Positions 8,400-16,733 of a stretch of DNA of 64,000 bases are shown here, one piece after another (the stretch's first letter is position 1; each line of letters begins with the position of its first letter). Source of the stretch: Spirochaetota bacterium (GTDB lineage Bacteria; Spirochaetota; UBA4802; JAFGJZ01); contig JAQIBV010000063.1 in assembly GCA_027858855.1 (NCBI GenBank), positions 1 to 64,000 on the forward strand, given 5' to 3'. Below the pieces are notes generated by a model, which had not been told where the DNA came from, did not search any database, and saw only the letters and a list, made by a program, of their open reading frames with translations. The position numbers were made by a program, and so were the translations under genes.

Positions 8400-8738
8400 T
8401 TAATGATCACATCCATTCACACCTGTCTCTAACTTACCATTTAAATACGACTGTACTATCACACGCGGAACATCCGAGGGAGCGCCAACCAGTACCTCAA
8501 TCCCCTGAGAATTAAAAAGTTGCTGGGCACGCTGACCCATACCACCACAGATAACAAGAGAAGCATCACGCTCTTTAACCCATGCCGGCAAGAGCCCTGG
8601 TTCATGAGGTGGAGCATCCTCTCTGGTTTCATCAACAATAGACCTGGTGGTATCATCAACGGTAATAAATGTAAAATAGGCACAATGGCCGAAATGCAAT
8701 GACAACTTATCCTGAACACAAGGAATCGCAATCTTCAT
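8400..8738 (-). CDS. NifX/ORP-like dinitrogenase iron-molybdenum cofactor family protein
   Basis: A 112-residue single-domain protein of the NifX/NifB-C-terminal/ORP fold. It starts MKIAIPCVQDKLSLHFGHC, with FGHC where this family has its conserved loop, and continues with LVICGGMGQRAQQLF and a typical C-terminus (SYLNGKLETG). The His- and Cys-containing end (NGCDH) could bind metal. Family members carry or insert metal-sulfur clusters; the actual cofactor here is unknown. It is last in the sigma-54 operon, 16 bases after the Mrp gene, which suggests it is a client or partner of the upstream ATPases. Confidence 0.85.
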   Translation of the reverse strand: MKIAIPCVQDKLSLHFGHCAYFTFITVDDTTRSIVDETREDAPPHEPGLLPAWVKERDASLVICGGMGQRAQQLFNSQGIEVLVGAPSDVPRVIVQSYLNGKLETGVNGCDH

Positions 8739-8754
8739 ACTAAAACCTCCATTT

Positions 8755-9576
8755 TTATATCCGGCTCTTCACAAGCCCGGGAAAATTTTCTTTCAACAAC
8801 ACATCAACAATTAATTTAAAACTAATACCGACCTCATTTTCCAGATCTTCACTGACCATAAATGGCTTTCCGCTATCACCGCATTCAGGAATCCCGGTTG
8901 ATATAGGTATTTCACCTAAAAATGGGATACTACTGATATCTGCGATTTTTTTGCCACCACCACGTTTGAACAGGTCTGAAATTTTCCCGCAATGAGGACA
9001 CGAAAATCCACTCATGTTTTCTATTACACCCAGCCGAGGTATATTCAGTTTTTCACAAAAGGTGATGGATTTTGCAACATCGACAAGCGCAAGATCCTGA
9101 GGGGTAGTCACAATAACTGCCCCATCCGGGTTTTCGATCAACTGACAAACAGCCAGAACTTCATCACCGGTTCCCGGAGGTGAATCGATAATCAGAAAAT
9201 CAAGCTCACCCCAATCCACATCGGTAAGGAACTGTTTAATAACGTTATGCTTCATTGGACCGCGCCAGATCATAGCATCACTCCTGGAATCTGTTAAGAA
9301 ACCGACAGAAACTGTTTTCAAAGTTCCATTATAAAGAATCGGCATAATTTTTCCATCAGCACTTTGTGAATGACGTGTTCCCTCAAGCCCCAGAAGTGTA
9401 GGTACTGAAGGTCCATGCAGATCAACATCCAGCAAACCGGTCTTATAGCCACGCTCTGCTAACGAAACCGCAAGGTTTACAGCTACTGTACTCTTACCAA
9501 CTCCGCCCTTTCCAGAAAGGACAACAACAGTATGGTCAACATCTGTCATATTTTCTTTTACTTTTTCGTCTACCAC
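8755..9576 (-). CDS. mrp: Mrp/NBP35-type iron-sulfur carrier ATPase
   Basis: A 273-residue deviant Walker A ATPase (SGKGGVGKST, 21-30) of the Mrp/ApbC/NBP35 family, which binds a bridging Fe-S cluster and passes it to apoproteins. The DLHGPSVPTLLG segment and the CPHCGK motif (CxxC cluster ligand) identify the family. It lies between the second MinD-like ATPase and the last NifX-like gene. In ORP operons of Desulfovibrio an Mrp protein is also encoded beside the ORP and MinD-like proteins. Confidence 0.92.
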   Translation of the reverse strand: MVDEKVKENMTDVDHTVVVLSGKGGVGKSTVAVNLAVSLAERGYKTGLLDVDLHGPSVPTLLGLEGTRHSQSADGKIMPILYNGTLKTVSVGFLTDSRSDAMIWRGPMKHNVIKQFLTDVDWGELDFLIIDSPPGTGDEVLAVCQLIENPDGAVIVTTPQDLALVDVAKSITFCEKLNIPRLGVIENMSGFSCPHCGKISDLFKRGGGKKIADISSIPFLGEIPISTGIPECGDSGKPFMVSEDLENEVGISFKLIVDVLLKENFPGLVKSRI

Positions 9577-9600
9577 TCATACTCTCCTGTTATATCTATA

Positions 9601-10473
9601 CTATTTTTTATTATCAAGCAGATCCCGGCAAACTGCGCTCCACACATCTTTGACTTCACGCGCAGCACTGCTATCGGTAAAACCTGTAACAGCACAACGA
9701 TTACGCTGCGCCTTGTTAAAAAGGGGGGAATAACCGATTCTTCCGGCAAAGAAAAGACCTTTCTCCAGAACATACCTCTCTATCTGATTGCAGAGATCAG
9801 TATTAATATCCGACCTGTTAATAACAATAGATATCTTAATGTGCATCCGTAAAACCAGTTCAACCGCGCGCTTCATATCAGAAATACCAGAACAGGTCGG
9901 CTCTGTAACAATGACAACACCAGTAGTGGCTGTTACCGCCGCAATTACCGGACAGCCAACCCCGGGAGGGCCATCAAGAATCAAGAGCGACGCTCCAGAA
10001 GCTTCAGCACCGGCTTTAGCCAGTTCACGTACACGGGTTACCATTTTACCTGAATTTTCTTCTCCCGTCCCCAGACGCCCATACACAAAGGAACCGGTTG
10101 TGCTCTTTGCGTGGTGTATAACGCCACACTTCTTATCAATTTTATTAACCGCATCAACCGGGCATGCGTAATAACAGACATTACAACCTTCACACAAAAA
10201 AGAATTTATAGTAAAATTATCAATCGCATTAAATCGGCATAACTCAACACATCTACCGCACTGTGTGCATAAATCTGGATTTATAGAATAGTCAAACCCT
10301 GCAATAAAATCTTCACTGTCTATTACGGTATGATCAATTCCTATAAAGAGGTTTGCGCCATCAACGTCGCAATCGGCAGCGTATGCTCCGTTTTGCAACT
10401 CAAAAAAGGCCCGTGTTAAAGACGACTTTCCTGTTCCCCCTTTTCCGCTAATAACCGCAATTGTATCAATCAT
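9601..10473 (-). CDS. MinD-superfamily ATPase with inserted 2[4Fe-4S] ferredoxin domain (copy 1)
   Basis: 290 residues. The P-loop is at the N-terminus (SGKGGTGKSS, 9-18). A bacterial ferredoxin domain is inserted between the ATPase halves, with cluster ligands C69, C72, C75, C79 and C94, C97, C100, C104. The rest matches MinD (LILDGPPGVGCPVIAA). This is the COG1149 architecture found in ORP operons. The cysteines suggest electron transfer or cluster handling coupled to ATP hydrolysis. Its start overlaps the preceding gene by 8 bases, so the two ATPases are probably made together and may form a heterodimer. Confidence 0.92.
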   Translation of the reverse strand: MIDTIAVISGKGGTGKSSLTRAFFELQNGAYAADCDVDGANLFIGIDHTVIDSEDFIAGFDYSINPDLCTQCGRCVELCRFNAIDNFTINSFLCEGCNVCYYACPVDAVNKIDKKCGVIHHAKSTTGSFVYGRLGTGEENSGKMVTRVRELAKAGAEASGASLLILDGPPGVGCPVIAAVTATTGVVIVTEPTCSGISDMKRAVELVLRMHIKISIVINRSDINTDLCNQIERYVLEKGLFFAGRIGYSPLFNKAQRNRCAVTGFTDSSAAREVKDVWSAVCRDLLDNKK

Positions 10474-11329
10474 CGCTACTCTCCAGACTCATCAACTTTT
10501 CAACCATATCAACTACTGGTTCATAATGCACAGAACCACCCTCTTCAATATAACCTCGCAAATCACCAACTGAATATTTCGCGGCCAGAATATGATCAAA
10601 GGGAATAGAACCGATAATGGGAATCTTTCTTTCATTACATAACGAGTACAACGAAGATGAAACCCCCTCATCTTTGTTAATAACCACCGCACAGGGAATT
10701 CCCATCTGCCTTACAAGATCCTCTATCAGGGCGAAATCGCTCATTCCGAAAGGCGTAGGCTCAACCACAATTAATGCAAAATCTGCATCATACAGGGCCT
10801 GAACCGTATTACAGGCAGTACCCGGAGGCGCATCAACTATCTGTAAATCACACCTAACATTTTCACCAAGAAGCTCACGAATTAAAAGTGGTGATTGAAT
10901 CTTACCAACATGTATTCTTCCTTCACGAAACGAAATATCCCCTTTCTCTGAAGAGGCAATTTCACCATACTCACTATCAATTTCTGAAATTGCCTCCTGA
11001 GGACAAAGAGAACTGCACCCTCCACAGGAATGACATAAATCGGTAAAAATAAGTGGTCGCTCTTTTACTAATACAATTGCATTATAGGCACATAATTCCA
11101 CACAAACACCGCACCCATTACAGATTTCAGAACTCAAAAGAGGAATCTTTCTGTAAACTGTACGACTATTCAATGAAGCCTTTACGAAGAGGTTTGAATT
11201 AGGTTCCTCAACATCCGCATCAACAAGCTCTACATCCATTTTTTTATTCATTAACAGCGACACCGCAACGGCACACGTTGTTTTTCCTGCTCCACCTTTA
11301 CCGCTGACTACTACCAATCTTTTTGTCAT
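10466..11329 (-). CDS. MinD-superfamily ATPase with inserted 2[4Fe-4S] ferredoxin domain (copy 2)
   Basis: A paralogue of the next gene. From the ATG at 11329 it is 287 residues, with P-loop SGKGGAGKTT (9-18) and ferredoxin ligands C70, C73, C76, C80 and C99, C102, C105, C109. I chose MTKRLVVV because TAGGGG lies just upstream; a longer frame from 11377 runs into the MBL gene and adds an unlikely cysteine-rich extension. Paired MinD-like ferredoxin ATPases are a hallmark of ORP-type clusters. In Desulfovibrio such proteins belong to a complex linked to cell division; that role here is inferred. Confidence 0.92.
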   Translation of the reverse strand: MTKRLVVVSGKGGAGKTTCAVAVSLLMNKKMDVELVDADVEEPNSNLFVKASLNSRTVYRKIPLLSSEICNGCGVCVELCAYNAIVLVKERPLIFTDLCHSCGGCSSLCPQEAISEIDSEYGEIASSEKGDISFREGRIHVGKIQSPLLIRELLGENVRCDLQIVDAPPGTACNTVQALYDADFALIVVEPTPFGMSDFALIEDLVRQMGIPCAVVINKDEGVSSSLYSLCNERKIPIIGSIPFDHILAAKYSVGDLRGYIEEGGSVHYEPVVDMVEKLMSLESSDD

Positions 11330-11337
11330 GAAAACCC

Positions 11338-12165
11338 CTATATAGAATAAACTGATCCCGCAGAAGCATATACGCATTCACCCGAAACACGTGATTTCAG
11401 TTCATGAAAGCCATCAACACCGGTACAGTGACCACAAATAACTCGTGAAACATTGAAGTGATTGAGAGCAGTCGCACAACTGCTTAACTGGTCAACGGTT
11501 GCTCCTTTTAAATGAAACCCGCCCATCACTGTATGAAACTCCCGTATCGAAAATTCTGAAGAAAGATATTCAAGAATTGCACCAACGCCTTTATGCGCAC
11601 AAGAGGTAACAACCGAATAACCATACTCACCGGCGATCAGAAGAACCATCTCATCCAGGAATGCATCAGGTACATAATCACTATTATAACGAACAAACAG
11701 ATTTTGATTATGTGAAGCCCCTGGGATTTTTTTCCCAAGTGGAACAACCACAACATCTCCCATTTTTTCCGGTTCATCTATCAGTTTAAATCGGGCACCG
11801 ATTTTCTCATACTCCAGCATGGGCAAAGGAATTCCAACCGAACGTTGAGCCCCAGTTGAAGAGGAAAAGGCCTCTCGGAAAACATTCATTGAAGCAATAA
11901 CCGGTGTTGAAACAAGATCATCAGCACTAATGGCTTTTAACAAATGCTCCAAACCTCCGGTGTGATCAAAGTGACAATGAGACAAAACTATCCCATCCAA
12001 TGTCGACAACTGAAGTTCAAGCTCTCTTAAATTTTTAAGAAGATGGTTACTTCTCCCTGTATCCAGCAAAACTTTTTTTTCACCCTCAAGCAAATAACAC
12101 AAACCATGTTCGGCAGACAGTCCATCACGATAGGTGCAATTATCGATAACAACTGTTATTCTCAT
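11338..12165 (-). CDS. Metallo-beta-lactamase-fold hydrolase (COG1237 type)
   Basis: 275 residues with the metal motif SHCHFDHTGG (H63, H65, D67, H68) and a late histidine in VICGHCTGVDG. The layout fits the COG1237 branch, whose archaeal member acts in methanopterin synthesis and whose bacterial members have unknown substrates. It starts on the last base of the tandem NifX-like gene and ends 8 bases before the MinD-like gene, so it is inside the sigma-54 operon. Its link to the cluster proteins is unexplained. It could process a cofactor precursor, but no substrate can be read from the sequence. Confidence 0.85.
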   Translation of the reverse strand: MRITVVIDNCTYRDGLSAEHGLCYLLEGEKKVLLDTGRSNHLLKNLRELELQLSTLDGIVLSHCHFDHTGGLEHLLKAISADDLVSTPVIASMNVFREAFSSSTGAQRSVGIPLPMLEYEKIGARFKLIDEPEKMGDVVVVPLGKKIPGASHNQNLFVRYNSDYVPDAFLDEMVLLIAGEYGYSVVTSCAHKGVGAILEYLSSEFSIREFHTVMGGFHLKGATVDQLSSCATALNHFNVSRVICGHCTGVDGFHELKSRVSGECVYASAGSVYSI

Positions 12166-12893
12166 TACCAGTGCCCCTCTACATCAGCTTCATCTGACGA
12201 AGTCAGTTTACCATCACGATACATCTGCAAAGCATTCAGCACACTTCCCTCTGCACCCGTAAATATGGCAACGTCAGCAGCCTTCAAAACAGAGTGCGCT
12301 TTTGGCCCAACATGTCCTGTTATTATTACTGAAACCCCCTCATCAAGAACAGTTCCAGCTGCCTGAATACCGGCTCCCTGAGGCGCGTTATAGTTTTGGC
12401 TGTTTTCTACAAAGCTCCAGGACGAACTCTCTTCATCAAAAACCATAAAAGCCCGGGCACGCCCAAAACGTTGATCAACTTCGGCTTTTTCATCAGAACC
12501 ACTGGTTGTTATACCTATTTTCATAGATCTCTCCTTAAATTTACCATCTGTAATTATACCAAACTGTTTTCTGCAGCACAATTTAGGCTTGCTGCAAATA
12601 CTAACTTTTTGCCAATCATGTGTTAACATGCATAAAAGTTTTTTTACTGATACCGGATGACACATCAGAAGAGATATTCCAGCAGTTGCCAGCATATCTG
12701 CCAACTCACGACTTACCCTATTATAAACTACGACAGTACACATCTCAGCCTGTAACAGATGTAAAACCGACCGAGACTGCTCCCGCCAAACCTGACTAAC
12801 CTCTTCAGGATTTCTGGAAACAATTATGAAACTCTGTGCCGTATCAAGAAGCGGGGAAACACGTTCATTAAAAACCGGTATTGCAATCTTCAT
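12165..12893 (-). CDS. Tandem NifX/ORP-like protein, two domains with an internal translation start
   Basis: 242 residues. Domain 1 (about 1-95, MKIAIPVFNERVSPLLD) and domain 2 (124-242, MKIGITTSGSDEKAEVDQRF) both have the NifX/ORP fold; relatives are usually single domains of 110-120 residues. The linker is Cys-rich (C100, C106, C107). Domain 2 begins at an ATG (12524) with a perfect AAGGAGA at 12530-12536, so it may also be made alone. The start at 12893 has no ribosome-binding site and coincides with the predicted +1 of the sigma-54 promoter, hinting at leaderless translation. A longer frame to 12977 would begin upstream of the promoter and is rejected. Domain 2 is the best ORP candidate. 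Confidence 0.8.
   Translation of the reverse strand: MKIAIPVFNERVSPLLDTAQSFIIVSRNPEEVSQVWREQSRSVLHLLQAEMCTVVVYNRVSRELADMLATAGISLLMCHPVSVKKLLCMLTHDWQKVSICSKPKLCCRKQFGIITDGKFKERSMKIGITTSGSDEKAEVDQRFGRARAFMVFDEESSSWSFVENSQNYNAPQGAGIQAAGTVLDEGVSVIITGHVGPKAHSVLKAADVAIFTGAEGSVLNALQMYRDGKLTSSDEADVEGHW
12530..12536 (-). promoter_or_regulatory. Internal ribosome-binding site before the second NifX-like domain
   Basis: AAGGAGA lies five bases before an in-frame ATG (12524). It is the strongest ribosome-binding site of the gene, whereas the gene's own first codon has none. Confidence 0.65.
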
Positions 12894-12902
12894 ACTATAT
12901 AT

Positions 12903-12919
12903 ATGCACCAATTGTGCCA
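12903..12919 (-). promoter_or_regulatory. Sigma-54 (-24/-12) promoter of the ORP-type operon
   Basis: The minus strand reads TGGCACAATTGGTGCAT, which fits the TGGCAC-N5-TTGCW consensus with the invariant GG and GC at exactly the required spacing. The predicted start of transcription is 12893. The adjacent enhancer-binding protein gene and palindromes support it. Confidence 0.88.
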
Positions 12920-13095
12920 AAATAGAGGGCTGAAGTATATACAGATTATTTTTTGTCAAAATCAGGAGATAATTCAAAAAAAATACGGTTTTTTAGAAAG
13001 AAACGTCAATAAATACGAGTTAAATCTGCAACATAATAGTGACATTGCCAGATTTGTATAGAGAGTAGGGAATTTAGAAAAAAACAGAAGAATTA

Positions 13096-13110
13096 ATTGC
13101 ATTATGCAAT
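13096..13110. promoter_or_regulatory. Palindromic upstream activator site 1
   Basis: attgcattatgcaat is a perfect 15-mer dyad around a central base. It lies about 190 bases upstream of the sigma-54 promoter, in the gap after the enhancer-binding protein gene. Confidence 0.82.
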
Positions 13111-13126
13111 GTCTTAGACAGAGATT

Positions 13127-13141
13127 ATTGCATAATGCAAT
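13127..13141. promoter_or_regulatory. Palindromic upstream activator site 2
   Basis: attgcataatgcaat is the reverse complement of site 1. The centres are 31 bases apart, about three helical turns, so both would face the same side of the DNA, as expected for an oligomeric activator. Confidence 0.82.
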
Positions 13142-13194: not shown

Positions 13195-14505
13195 CTATTC
13201 AAGCGATAAATCCTTGAGTTTTCTCCATAACGTGGAAGGGTTAATGCCCAGTTGACGAGCTGTTTCAGTACGATTGCCATTGTTAGCCAGGAGCACCTTG
13301 TGAATATGTCGCTGTTCGACATCATCCAGACGTAAAGAATCATCGTCAATTTCAGAAAGAATATTAGAAGGCAGGTCTCCCGTTTCTATTCTGTCTGAAC
13401 GGCTCATCACATAGGCATACTCGATTATATTTTCAAGCTCACGCACATTGCCTGGATAGTTATACACCATAAGCCGAGCCGTAACCTCCCCCGGAAGATA
13501 CTTGCTGCCCTTTCCGCGTATAACCTGAAGACGAGAAAGAATCGATTCAGCTAACAGAGGGATATCCTCTCTGCGGGCTCTAAGCGGCGGGATATCAATT
13601 CGTATAACGGCAATTCTGTAAAACAGATCCTCCCTAAACTCCTTGTTAGCAATCCCGGCTGCCAAATCCTTGTTTGTTGCAGCAAGGATCCTGACATCTG
13701 CACGTCTGGTCACATTGCTGCCAATCGGCTCGTAATCTTTGAACTGTAAAAAACGCAGTAACTTAACCTGTATAGAAATTGGCAGATCCCCAATCTCATC
13801 AAGAAAAAGAGTTCCGCCCTCCGCTTCAGCAATACGTCCAGGTTTATCCCTATTTGCTCCGGTAAAGGCTCCTTTTACATAACCAAAAAGTTCTGACTCA
13901 AGCAGCTGTTCCGGTAATGCCGCAGCATGCAGTGCAACAAATTTATTTTCGGATCTGAAAGACCTATTATGTAGCGCCCGTGCGAAGAGCTCCTTTCCAG
14001 TTCCACTCTCGCCTGCAATAAGGACTGTCGACTCGCTCTCTGCAATATCAGGTAAAATTTCGAACAACGAGTGCATCTGTCTGTTTTTACTGATTATATC
14101 CTCAAAGGTGTAATTTTCCGTAACAGCTTTTCGTAATTTTTCGACAGTACTCATGTCACGGAAAATCTCGACTGCGGCAACTATCATACCCGTTTCATCC
14201 TTTATCACGGATGTCGACACGGAAAGCGGAATACGGGTACCATCCGCCTTAACCACATATATATCCCGGTTAACAATTGGCGTACCAGTATCCATTGATT
14301 CACGCAAAACACAGGCCGTTTCACATACCGATGCGTGAAACACCTCATAACAGCGTTTACCAACAGCATCATCACGACTGATATCAAGAATCTGCAAAGC
14401 AGATCTGTTAATCATGGTTATTTTAAAATTTGTATCAATGCAAAAGAGTCCATCAGCAATGGAATCAAGTAGAATTTCGGCAGGTATACCTTCAGGAAGT
14501 TTCAT
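13195..14505 (-). CDS. Sigma-54 enhancer-binding protein with PAS sensor
   Basis: 436 residues in three parts. A PAS domain (about 8-120) carries cysteines C52, C61 and C65 (RCYEVFHASVCETAC), which may hold a redox or Fe-S sensor. The AAA+ domain has Walker A GESGTGKE (165-172), the sigma-54 contact loop GAFTGA (212-217) and Walker B GTLFLDEIGD. A Fis-type helix-turn-helix closes the protein (NRTETARQLGINPSTLWRKL). There is no receiver domain. It is the likely activator of the adjacent ORP-type operon through the palindromes at 13096-13141. Its start overlaps the HEAT-repeat gene by 14 bases. Confidence 0.93.
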   Translation of the reverse strand: MKLPEGIPAEILLDSIADGLFCIDTNFKITMINRSALQILDISRDDAVGKRCYEVFHASVCETACVLRESMDTGTPIVNRDIYVVKADGTRIPLSVSTSVIKDETGMIVAAVEIFRDMSTVEKLRKAVTENYTFEDIISKNRQMHSLFEILPDIAESESTVLIAGESGTGKELFARALHNRSFRSENKFVALHAAALPEQLLESELFGYVKGAFTGANRDKPGRIAEAEGGTLFLDEIGDLPISIQVKLLRFLQFKDYEPIGSNVTRRADVRILAATNKDLAAGIANKEFREDLFYRIAVIRIDIPPLRARREDIPLLAESILSRLQVIRGKGSKYLPGEVTARLMVYNYPGNVRELENIIEYAYVMSRSDRIETGDLPSNILSEIDDDSLRLDDVEQRHIHKVLLANNGNRTETARQLGINPSTLWRKLKDLSLE

Positions 14506-15892
14506 TCTCTAATTCCCTGAGAGTATCTTTAAGAATTGAAAGCTCTTCATCATCACAAACATTATCCAAAACATCACACAACGAATCGTATACCGAAGTA
14601 TCTCCGATTTTACGCAGCGCATCATAAACAGCAATGCGAATATCGCGATCATTATGGCAGAGATATTCACTTATTTTAGAAACTGATTGTTTATCCTCCA
14701 ATTCACCAAGGGCATAGATGATACACAAAAGCAGCTCATCTGTAAGATTTCGATTAAATAGATCCCTGATCTCCGGCGACAATCTCTTATTACCGCACTC
14801 GGCCGCTATTTCAAGAAGCGCAGGCAATGTCTCATCGGTACCTTTTTTAATACTCTCTGCTACAAATTCAGTCTGACTACAGAGAGTCTCGGTTGCCACA
14901 CAAATAAGAGAAGTTCTCTCTAATTCACTGTTAACAGCTCCGCTAAGTAAAATATCCATGGCCTTCTTGCCAGCATTAATTCCTGAACGACATAACAATT
15001 TTTCAGAGGATCGTTTCAGATGTAGATTTGAACTCGTAAGAAAACCAATAAGTAAATCAAACAGCTCTTCCGGAGCAGAATCGACCATATCAAGAAAACC
15101 ACGTTTTAGTTCACCCGGCAGCTGTTCAAGATATTCCCTGAACACATCACTCTGATGATCAAAAACGGATTCAGTAACCTTTTCAAAAATTCTTTCGCAC
15201 AATATCTCATCTGAACGATCAACAAAATGCAAAAGAGCTCGAGCGCCTTCAGGATCAGTAACACGTACATTATCCCAGTCACTGCGAATCGCATTACAGA
15301 GCATCTCATCAACCGGGTTCTCGAAAGAATACGACAACTGTTTTAAAAAACCGGCGGCACGATTGCGCAATGCACTGTCATCATCACGTAATAATCCAAT
15401 AAAAACACTGATATTGTCTTTCATCAAGATTTTGCCCAATGCCTCAAGAGCCTCTAAACGACAGTGTGATCCTGAGTGATTAATAACTGACCTTAATACA
15501 TCCTGAGCATCAACCGACCCGATATCTCCCAACGCCTTAGCAAATATGGGATCATCGCTCTGCTCGAGCAGAAATATAAAAAGAGGCACAGCCTCTTTCT
15601 CTTTAGTATGGCCAAGTGCCGCAACCACACCATAACGGATCAATCCGTTTTCATCGTAAATACTGTTTAACAGAAAACGGGTTGCAACAGGCCCTATAGA
15701 CGCAAAAGCTTCCGCAAGGGGGGCTTTTTCAGATAGAGTAAGATCATTTCGTGTTATCAGAATATCCAGCAGAAAAGGAACTGTAAGCGGTGAATCTATA
15801 GAAGCCAGACGTGAAACAGCAGTAATAAAGCGTTCCCCCTTCGAATGTTCAAGACGGGAATAATACCACTGAGCTCGAAAGCGATTAAACAT
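14492..15892 (-). CDS. HEAT-repeat protein
   Basis: 466 residues made almost wholly of paired-helix HEAT/PBS-lyase-like repeats (for example RYGVVAALGHTKEKEAVPLF and RLEALEALGKILMKD). There is no signal peptide or membrane segment, so it is probably a cytoplasmic scaffold. It sits between the HExxH gene (8-base overlap) and the enhancer-binding protein gene (14-base overlap), in one apparent transcript. Co-transcription with the activator suggests a part in its signalling, but that is only context. Confidence 0.8.
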   Translation of the reverse strand: MFNRFRAQWYYSRLEHSKGERFITAVSRLASIDSPLTVPFLLDILITRNDLTLSEKAPLAEAFASIGPVATRFLLNSIYDENGLIRYGVVAALGHTKEKEAVPLFIFLLEQSDDPIFAKALGDIGSVDAQDVLRSVINHSGSHCRLEALEALGKILMKDNISVFIGLLRDDDSALRNRAAGFLKQLSYSFENPVDEMLCNAIRSDWDNVRVTDPEGARALLHFVDRSDEILCERIFEKVTESVFDHQSDVFREYLEQLPGELKRGFLDMVDSAPEELFDLLIGFLTSSNLHLKRSSEKLLCRSGINAGKKAMDILLSGAVNSELERTSLICVATETLCSQTEFVAESIKKGTDETLPALLEIAAECGNKRLSPEIRDLFNRNLTDELLLCIIYALGELEDKQSVSKISEYLCHNDRDIRIAVYDALRKIGDTSVYDSLCDVLDNVCDDEELSILKDTLRELENETS

Positions 15893-16733
15893 TCGTTTCG
15901 CCCTGATCGGTTATCAGTCGATCACTTATAGAGCCTTCGAAACTGGTAATTCGCTCATCGATATTTTCCAACCGCTCAATCAGATGTGCGATGCTCTTTT
16001 CAAGACGAAGCTTCTCTTTCAGCAGCAACTCGACCTCATCCTGTTTTTGCAACTTGTACTTATCCGGATTAATAACCTCCGCCTTAACCATAGGCTCGGT
16101 CATCCCCTTCTTAAAACCGGCAAGAGCTCGTCGACGCATATCATCATCTTCGATACGGGCAACCAGTTTCATATTATCAATACCGATTTCACTTGTTATA
16201 TCATGCTGAAACGCCTTAATCAACGCCTTTGCCTCTTGACGTTTGAACCCCAACTCGCGGTCAAGATAGTCTTCGAAACTTGCGTGAGTTTCCATACATA
16301 ACGACATGGCCTCAAGTAATACATTACCAAACTTTTTCATTATTTCAGCATTGTTCTGTAAATACTCAGCTTTAATCTTTTTAGTTAATTCGGTAAAACG
16401 GGGATCCGTTTTAAAAAGAGAGTTATAGATGCCTTTTTTTTCCGCATCAAAAAGCAGGGTATGCAGGAGGTTCCAGAAAAGGGTTGTATGCGACTTTGAC
16501 GATATTGTCCCAGAAGATTCTGTAAACTGGATATGATGTGCAAATTCATGAATGGCGGTATATATCAGCCTGTTTTCAGATTCAAAGTTTTTATTATGAA
16601 TAATAATTTCACAACTTTCGGGTTTGTACAGACCGTCAACCTTACCCGACTTTTTCCCCGACAATATGACTGTAAAATCATCTACATCACTCTTCAGCTC
16701 CAGCAACTTCGCTTTTATCTCTTGTTGGTTCAT
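15885..16733 (-). CDS. Putative zincin-like protein with HEFAHH motif and C-terminal coiled coil
   Basis: 282 residues of an unrecognised family. HEFAHH at 62-67 is a good HExxH zinc motif (H62, E63, H66) in the context IYTAIHEFAHHIQFTE, as in minigluzincins. A third ligand cannot be fixed by eye. The C-terminal third (about 225-275) is a charged coiled coil. There is no signal peptide. AGGAAA precedes the ATG at 16733. It starts 47 bases inside the GIN-domain lipoprotein gene and is followed by the HEAT gene. Peptidase activity is plausible but unproven. Confidence 0.65.
   Translation of the reverse strand: MNQQEIKAKLLELKSDVDDFTVILSGKKSGKVDGLYKPESCEIIIHNKNFESENRLIYTAIHEFAHHIQFTESSGTISSKSHTTLFWNLLHTLLFDAEKKGIYNSLFKTDPRFTELTKKIKAEYLQNNAEIMKKFGNVLLEAMSLCMETHASFEDYLDRELGFKRQEAKALIKAFQHDITSEIGIDNMKLVARIEDDDMRRRALAGFKKGMTEPMVKAEVINPDKYKLQKQDEVELLLKEKLRLEKSIAHLIERLENIDERITSFEGSISDRLITDQGETNV

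Follow-up and report, generated by a model that had tools for sequence, protein, structure and literature searches.

An ORP-like operon of a spirochaete appears to be controlled by an OrpR-type sigma-54 switch with a variant operator, a predicted leaderless first cistron and a regulon of just one operon; taken as a whole, we consider this reading likely. It comes from a window of 64,000 nucleotides, the whole stretch of contig DNA that was analysed. ORP regulation has so far been described mainly from Desulfovibrio. In D. vulgaris, two divergent orp operons are under the control of sigma-54, the activator DVU2106 (OrpR), palindromic sites and IHF (PMC3897727, PMC6345978). An earlier note on this DNA had proposed that the same wiring operates here, probably in a different phylum. 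The host indeed belongs to Spirochaetota, and comparison across its order and other phyla strongly supports the proposal at the level of sequence. The elements of the locus are listed below.

13195-14505, minus strand: PAS-AAA-Fis sigma-54 activator, OrpR-like (Pfam domains and alignment)
13127-13141, no strand assigned: distal operator palindrome ATTGCATAATGCAAT (exact match and genome-wide uniqueness)
13096-13110, no strand assigned: proximal operator palindrome ATTGCATTATGCAAT (exact match and genome-wide uniqueness)
12904-12920, minus strand: sigma-54 -24/-12 promoter TTGGCACAATTGGTGCA (conserved layout in relatives)
12891-12893, minus strand: first start codon, at the predicted +1 (promoter-ATG spacing)
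12165-12893, minus strand: first cistron, ORF1, 242 aa, NifX-like with a second NifX/orange-protein-like domain
11338-12165, minus strand: metallo-beta-lactamase-fold (MBL-fold) protein (Pfam)
10466-11377, minus strand: MinD/ParA-like ATPase with a ferredoxin insert (Orp3/Orp4-like), its true start probably about 50 nt downstream of 11377
9601-10473, minus strand: second MinD/ParA-like ATPase with a ferredoxin insert (Orp3/Orp4-like)
8755-9576, minus strand: Mrp/NBP35-like ATPase, matching the P-loop part of MrpORP
8400-8738, minus strand: NifX-like protein, the domain that is fused to Mrp in D. vulgaris MrpORP (PMC6345978)

The gene content resembles the orp genes of D. vulgaris Hildenborough: MinD-like ATPases with ferredoxin motifs (here two, each with two such motifs), NifX/orange-protein-like proteins and Mrp. 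The Mrp/NBP35 and NifX-type parts of MrpORP, fused in D. vulgaris, are two adjacent genes in the spirochaete, and the Mrp of the operon scores 352.6 bits against a cut-off of 450 for the fused protein. The spirochaete also differs in having an additional MBL-fold gene and a single operon, co-oriented with the activator gene, instead of two divergent operons. Homology to orange proteins is of the NifX type (PF02579); the Mo-Cu cluster is a putative property here, and the roles of the ORP proteins and the signal that induces the operon are likewise putative. ORF1 and the NifX/orange-protein-like domain that follows it form one frame in the window and two ORFs in relatives; at one locus (L073) the two ORFs are adjacent and in the same frame, yet separate.

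The regulatory layout shares with D. vulgaris orp a sigma-54 promoter, an adjacent cognate activator and two upstream palindromic activator sites, which are predicted here (PMC3897727, PMC6345978). The earlier note was right about the presence of the promoter and its GG-N10-GC spacing but placed it one base off, at 12903-12919. The element has one mismatch against YTGGCACRNNNNTTGCW. It should be noted that with up to two mismatches allowed the window contains 6 such matches against 8.0 expected, so the element alone is not above chance, and its support comes from conservation in relatives. Both 15-bp palindromes were located as described earlier: they are mutual reverse complements and lie 31 bp apart from start to start, i.e., about three helical turns. 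A genome-wide scan for the palindrome, which the earlier note had suggested, found two exact copies in 3,352,184 bp, both at the ORP locus, and no one-mismatch copies in the 3.35-Mb genome. The paired pattern TTGCA-N3-TGCA-N19..21-TTGCA-N3-TGCA likewise occurs once in the host genome, where rpoN was also found, which agrees with the description of the regulon as self-contained. A larger regulon in the host was considered and rejected: other palindrome copies, with one to two mismatches, are unpaired.

ORP/activator loci of relatives were collected for comparison. Most ORP-like loci of the same order for which the stretch between activator and operon was available have a -24/-12 promoter preceded by an ATTGCA-N3-TGCAAT pair whose members are 31-33 bp apart. 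At least two spacer-3 sites are present in 13 of 20 order loci versus 0.02 in shuffles, and the excess is confined to spacer 3. Among 393 Spirochaetota genomes, the exact pair was found in 15 (14 of them inside the order), once in each except G039, which has two; the reversed-control pattern gave no hit in the same scan. No pair was seen at the same-order ORP loci of G004 and G005, nor any site in same-genus G001 within the 488 bp from the activator end to the contig end. A promoter look-alike and a palindrome pair might arise together by chance in AT-rich DNA, the operator-promoter interval being 72% AT and -24/-12 look-alikes occurring in the window at the expected frequency. Given the conservation over the order and other phyla, the uniqueness of the pair in the genome and the shuffle controls, we find this hardly credible.

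The protein encoded at 13195-14505 has a PAS domain, a sigma-54-activator AAA+ domain with GAFTGA and a Fis-type HTH (Pfam), the domains expected of an OrpR/DVU2106-type activator; the ORP genes next to it are preceded by a -24/-12 promoter and paired palindromes. Its reading frame ends 54 bp past the distal palindrome, so the earlier claim of a PAS-type sigma-54 activator gene ending just beyond the palindromes holds. PAS cysteines C52, C61 and C65 form a CX8CX3C motif. The three cysteines are invariant among 19 aligned activators, and the motif is found in every EBP that is not truncated or mis-framed at the N-terminus. The PAS domain of OrpR/DVU2106-type activators reportedly binds an Fe-S cluster; judging from this motif, the activator of the locus probably senses iron-sulfur through its PAS cysteines. 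Activators at the same position in Desulfovibrionales are homologous and share CX8CX3C. The sigma-54 contact loop reads GAFTGA in the window and in a genus mate, and GAFTDA in 19 of the 20 other order sequences scored; GAFTDA is a functional variant according to the list in PMC4641369.

Homologous activators with CX8CX3C also adjoin a -24/-12 promoter and ORF1 in other Spirochaetota families, in Planctomycetota and in Desulfobacterota. Operators beyond the order are mostly TYGCA-N4-TGCRA and often paired; at Desulfovibrio-type loci neither the N3 nor the N4 operator was detected at the threshold used. Operator spacer and one residue of the recognition helix are concordant in 52 of 55 cases: a residue other than K/R accompanies 19 of 21 N3 operators, and K/R accompanies 33 of 34 N4 operators (naive Fisher p 1.4e-11). 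On an activator tree built without the HTH, the operator class changes only about three times, and for this reason the covariation of spacer and recognition helix is suggestive and not an independent proof. In the same tree, activators of the order cluster with those of Planctomycetota and Desulfobacterota, apart from most other Spirochaetota, including G002 of the same family. The activator of G002 (L096) belongs to the other main clade and no N3 operator is present at its locus, a pattern suggesting that lineages have exchanged the activator module.

These comparisons bear on what the palindromes are for. In many genomes no more than about 100 bp separate the pair from the activator stop codon, as would be expected if it were a signal of the activator 3' end (a terminator or processing site) or the site of an unrelated regulator, with no role in activating the operon. 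However, no T-run follows the palindromes, and the operator class tracks a residue of the activator HTH. Moreover, the pair remains beside the ORP promoter in genomes whose activator gene lies on a different contig (G016, G011) or kilobases away (L084, L087, L089; G031, G040, G039). We therefore regard a 3'-end signal or an unrelated site as very unlikely, and treat the palindromes as candidate activator sites.

The spacing between promoter and start codon is a further conserved element, new relative to the earlier note, which gave a transcript start at 12893 without remarking that it coincides with the first ATG. The C of the GC at -12 puts the predicted +1 at 12893, the A of that ATG, with an uncertainty of a few nt, since the sigma-54 start was derived from the promoter. 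All 19 loci of the first set, which were selected for an ATG at that position, have predicted leaders of 0-3 nt. A broader homology search was free of that condition; of the 29 Spirochaetota loci in it that have a site, 26 again gave 0-3 nt, and the exceptions (L240, L241 and L248) have 12-13 nt and a Shine-Dalgarno-like sequence. If the -24/-12 promoter is used, the leader of ORF1 is too short for a Shine-Dalgarno, and none precedes the ATG whatever transcript start is assumed. Thus, the ORF1 mRNA is predicted to be leaderless, starting at or a few nt before the AUG.

Leaderlessness would be only apparent, the wiring still being correct, if the transcript began upstream or translation started further inside. 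The few-nt uncertainty of the start, the 8-13 nt spacing reported for C. jejuni (PMC3847290) and the frame of ORF1 in the window, which is open upstream with possible TTG/GTG starts, leave room for this. In at least nine relatives, on the other hand, an in-frame stop lies 4-10 nt before +1 with no ATG, GTG, TTG or CTG between it and the ATG, and conservation of the ORF1 protein starts at or close to this Met. Together with the near-zero spacing at 26 of 29 loci and the lack of a Shine-Dalgarno before the ATG, this makes an apparent leaderlessness rather doubtful in our opinion, and we retain the prediction of a leaderless mRNA.

Leaders of 1-4 nt also occur in some Planctomycetota (L135/L261, L288-L290) and some Desulfovibrionales (L295, L305-L308, L312). 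At Desulfovibrio-type loci the leader measures 15-16 nt and in most cases contains GAGGAG; for the remaining Desulfobacterota, lengths of 16-43 nt predominate. Leaders are longer where ORF1 is not first (L077, L093) and at the host genome's other intergenic sigma-54-like sites; several members of this longer-leader set, which includes the other G011 genes, have a Shine-Dalgarno. G011 provides an internal control: by predicted starts, its ORF1 is leaderless, and two other operator-bearing genes have long leaders and a Shine-Dalgarno. On this evidence it is an evenly balanced proposition that many families of spirochaetes, and a few lineages in other phyla, have kept a sigma-54 promoter and its dedicated activator at a spacing that makes this one first cistron leaderless. 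Leaderless translation initiation would then act as a built-in second layer of ORP control, and normal leaders would be retained at the activator's remaining promoters.

The spirochaete Leptospira interrogans commonly produces leaderless mRNAs, about 440 of its transcripts having a UTR of <10 nt (PMC5243855). The ORP case resembles leaderless mRNAs of this and other bacteria in having an AUG at or near the predicted 5' end and no Shine-Dalgarno; unlike them, it combines a sigma-54 promoter and a dedicated activator, and a single gene has retained the near-zero spacing in many families. The D. vulgaris promoters, in contrast, are drawn with a Shine-Dalgarno (Figure S1 legend, PMC3897727). In the literature searched, the coverage of which was incomplete, we found no description of a leaderless sigma-54 ORP transcript or of such spacing kept at one sigma-54 gene over many families.

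We propose that the activator would bind the two helically phased palindromes (13096-13141), perhaps in response to iron-sulfur or redox state perceived through the PAS cysteines, and remodel a sigma-54 polymerase waiting at 12904-12920. The operon (8400-12893) would then be transcribed from at or within a few nt of the first ATG, and the NifX-like first cistron translated from a leaderless mRNA. The N3 operator is one difference from D. vulgaris orp. Another concerns IHF: no match to the consensus WATCARNNNNTTR was found in the interval between operator and promoter, and the host genome has two HU/IHF-family genes. Dependence on IHF characterizes the D. vulgaris promoters (PMC3897727) and is not a necessary mark of an OrpR-type activator. 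The comparison places a dedicated ORP switch in Spirochaetota and Planctomycetota. It yields a concrete operator that comes in two spacer classes, together with a candidate residue of the activator that matches these classes, and it leads to the prediction that a sigma-54-controlled transcript is leaderless in a conserved manner.

G011 has operator pairs at three separate promoter regions, those of the ORP operon, ORF1 and the gene of a small MPGGDGTGP-type protein, the last with a degenerate -24 element. Small MPGGDGTGP-type proteins under the same operator pair are encoded at L326/L353 (G011:C14) and L110 (G011:C23); we take these proteins to be DUF5320-like, and the shared operator pair suggests that they belong to the ORP response. 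In a spirochaete outside the order (G057:C86, L339/L352), a -24/-12 look-alike is preceded by an exact N3 pair; the 3-kb stretch inspected there contains no ORP gene. Upstream of the activator of the window, on the same strand (14492-16733), are a HEAT-repeat gene, overlapping the start of the activator, and the gene of a 282-aa protein with no Pfam match; given this arrangement, the activator may be cotranscribed with these two genes.
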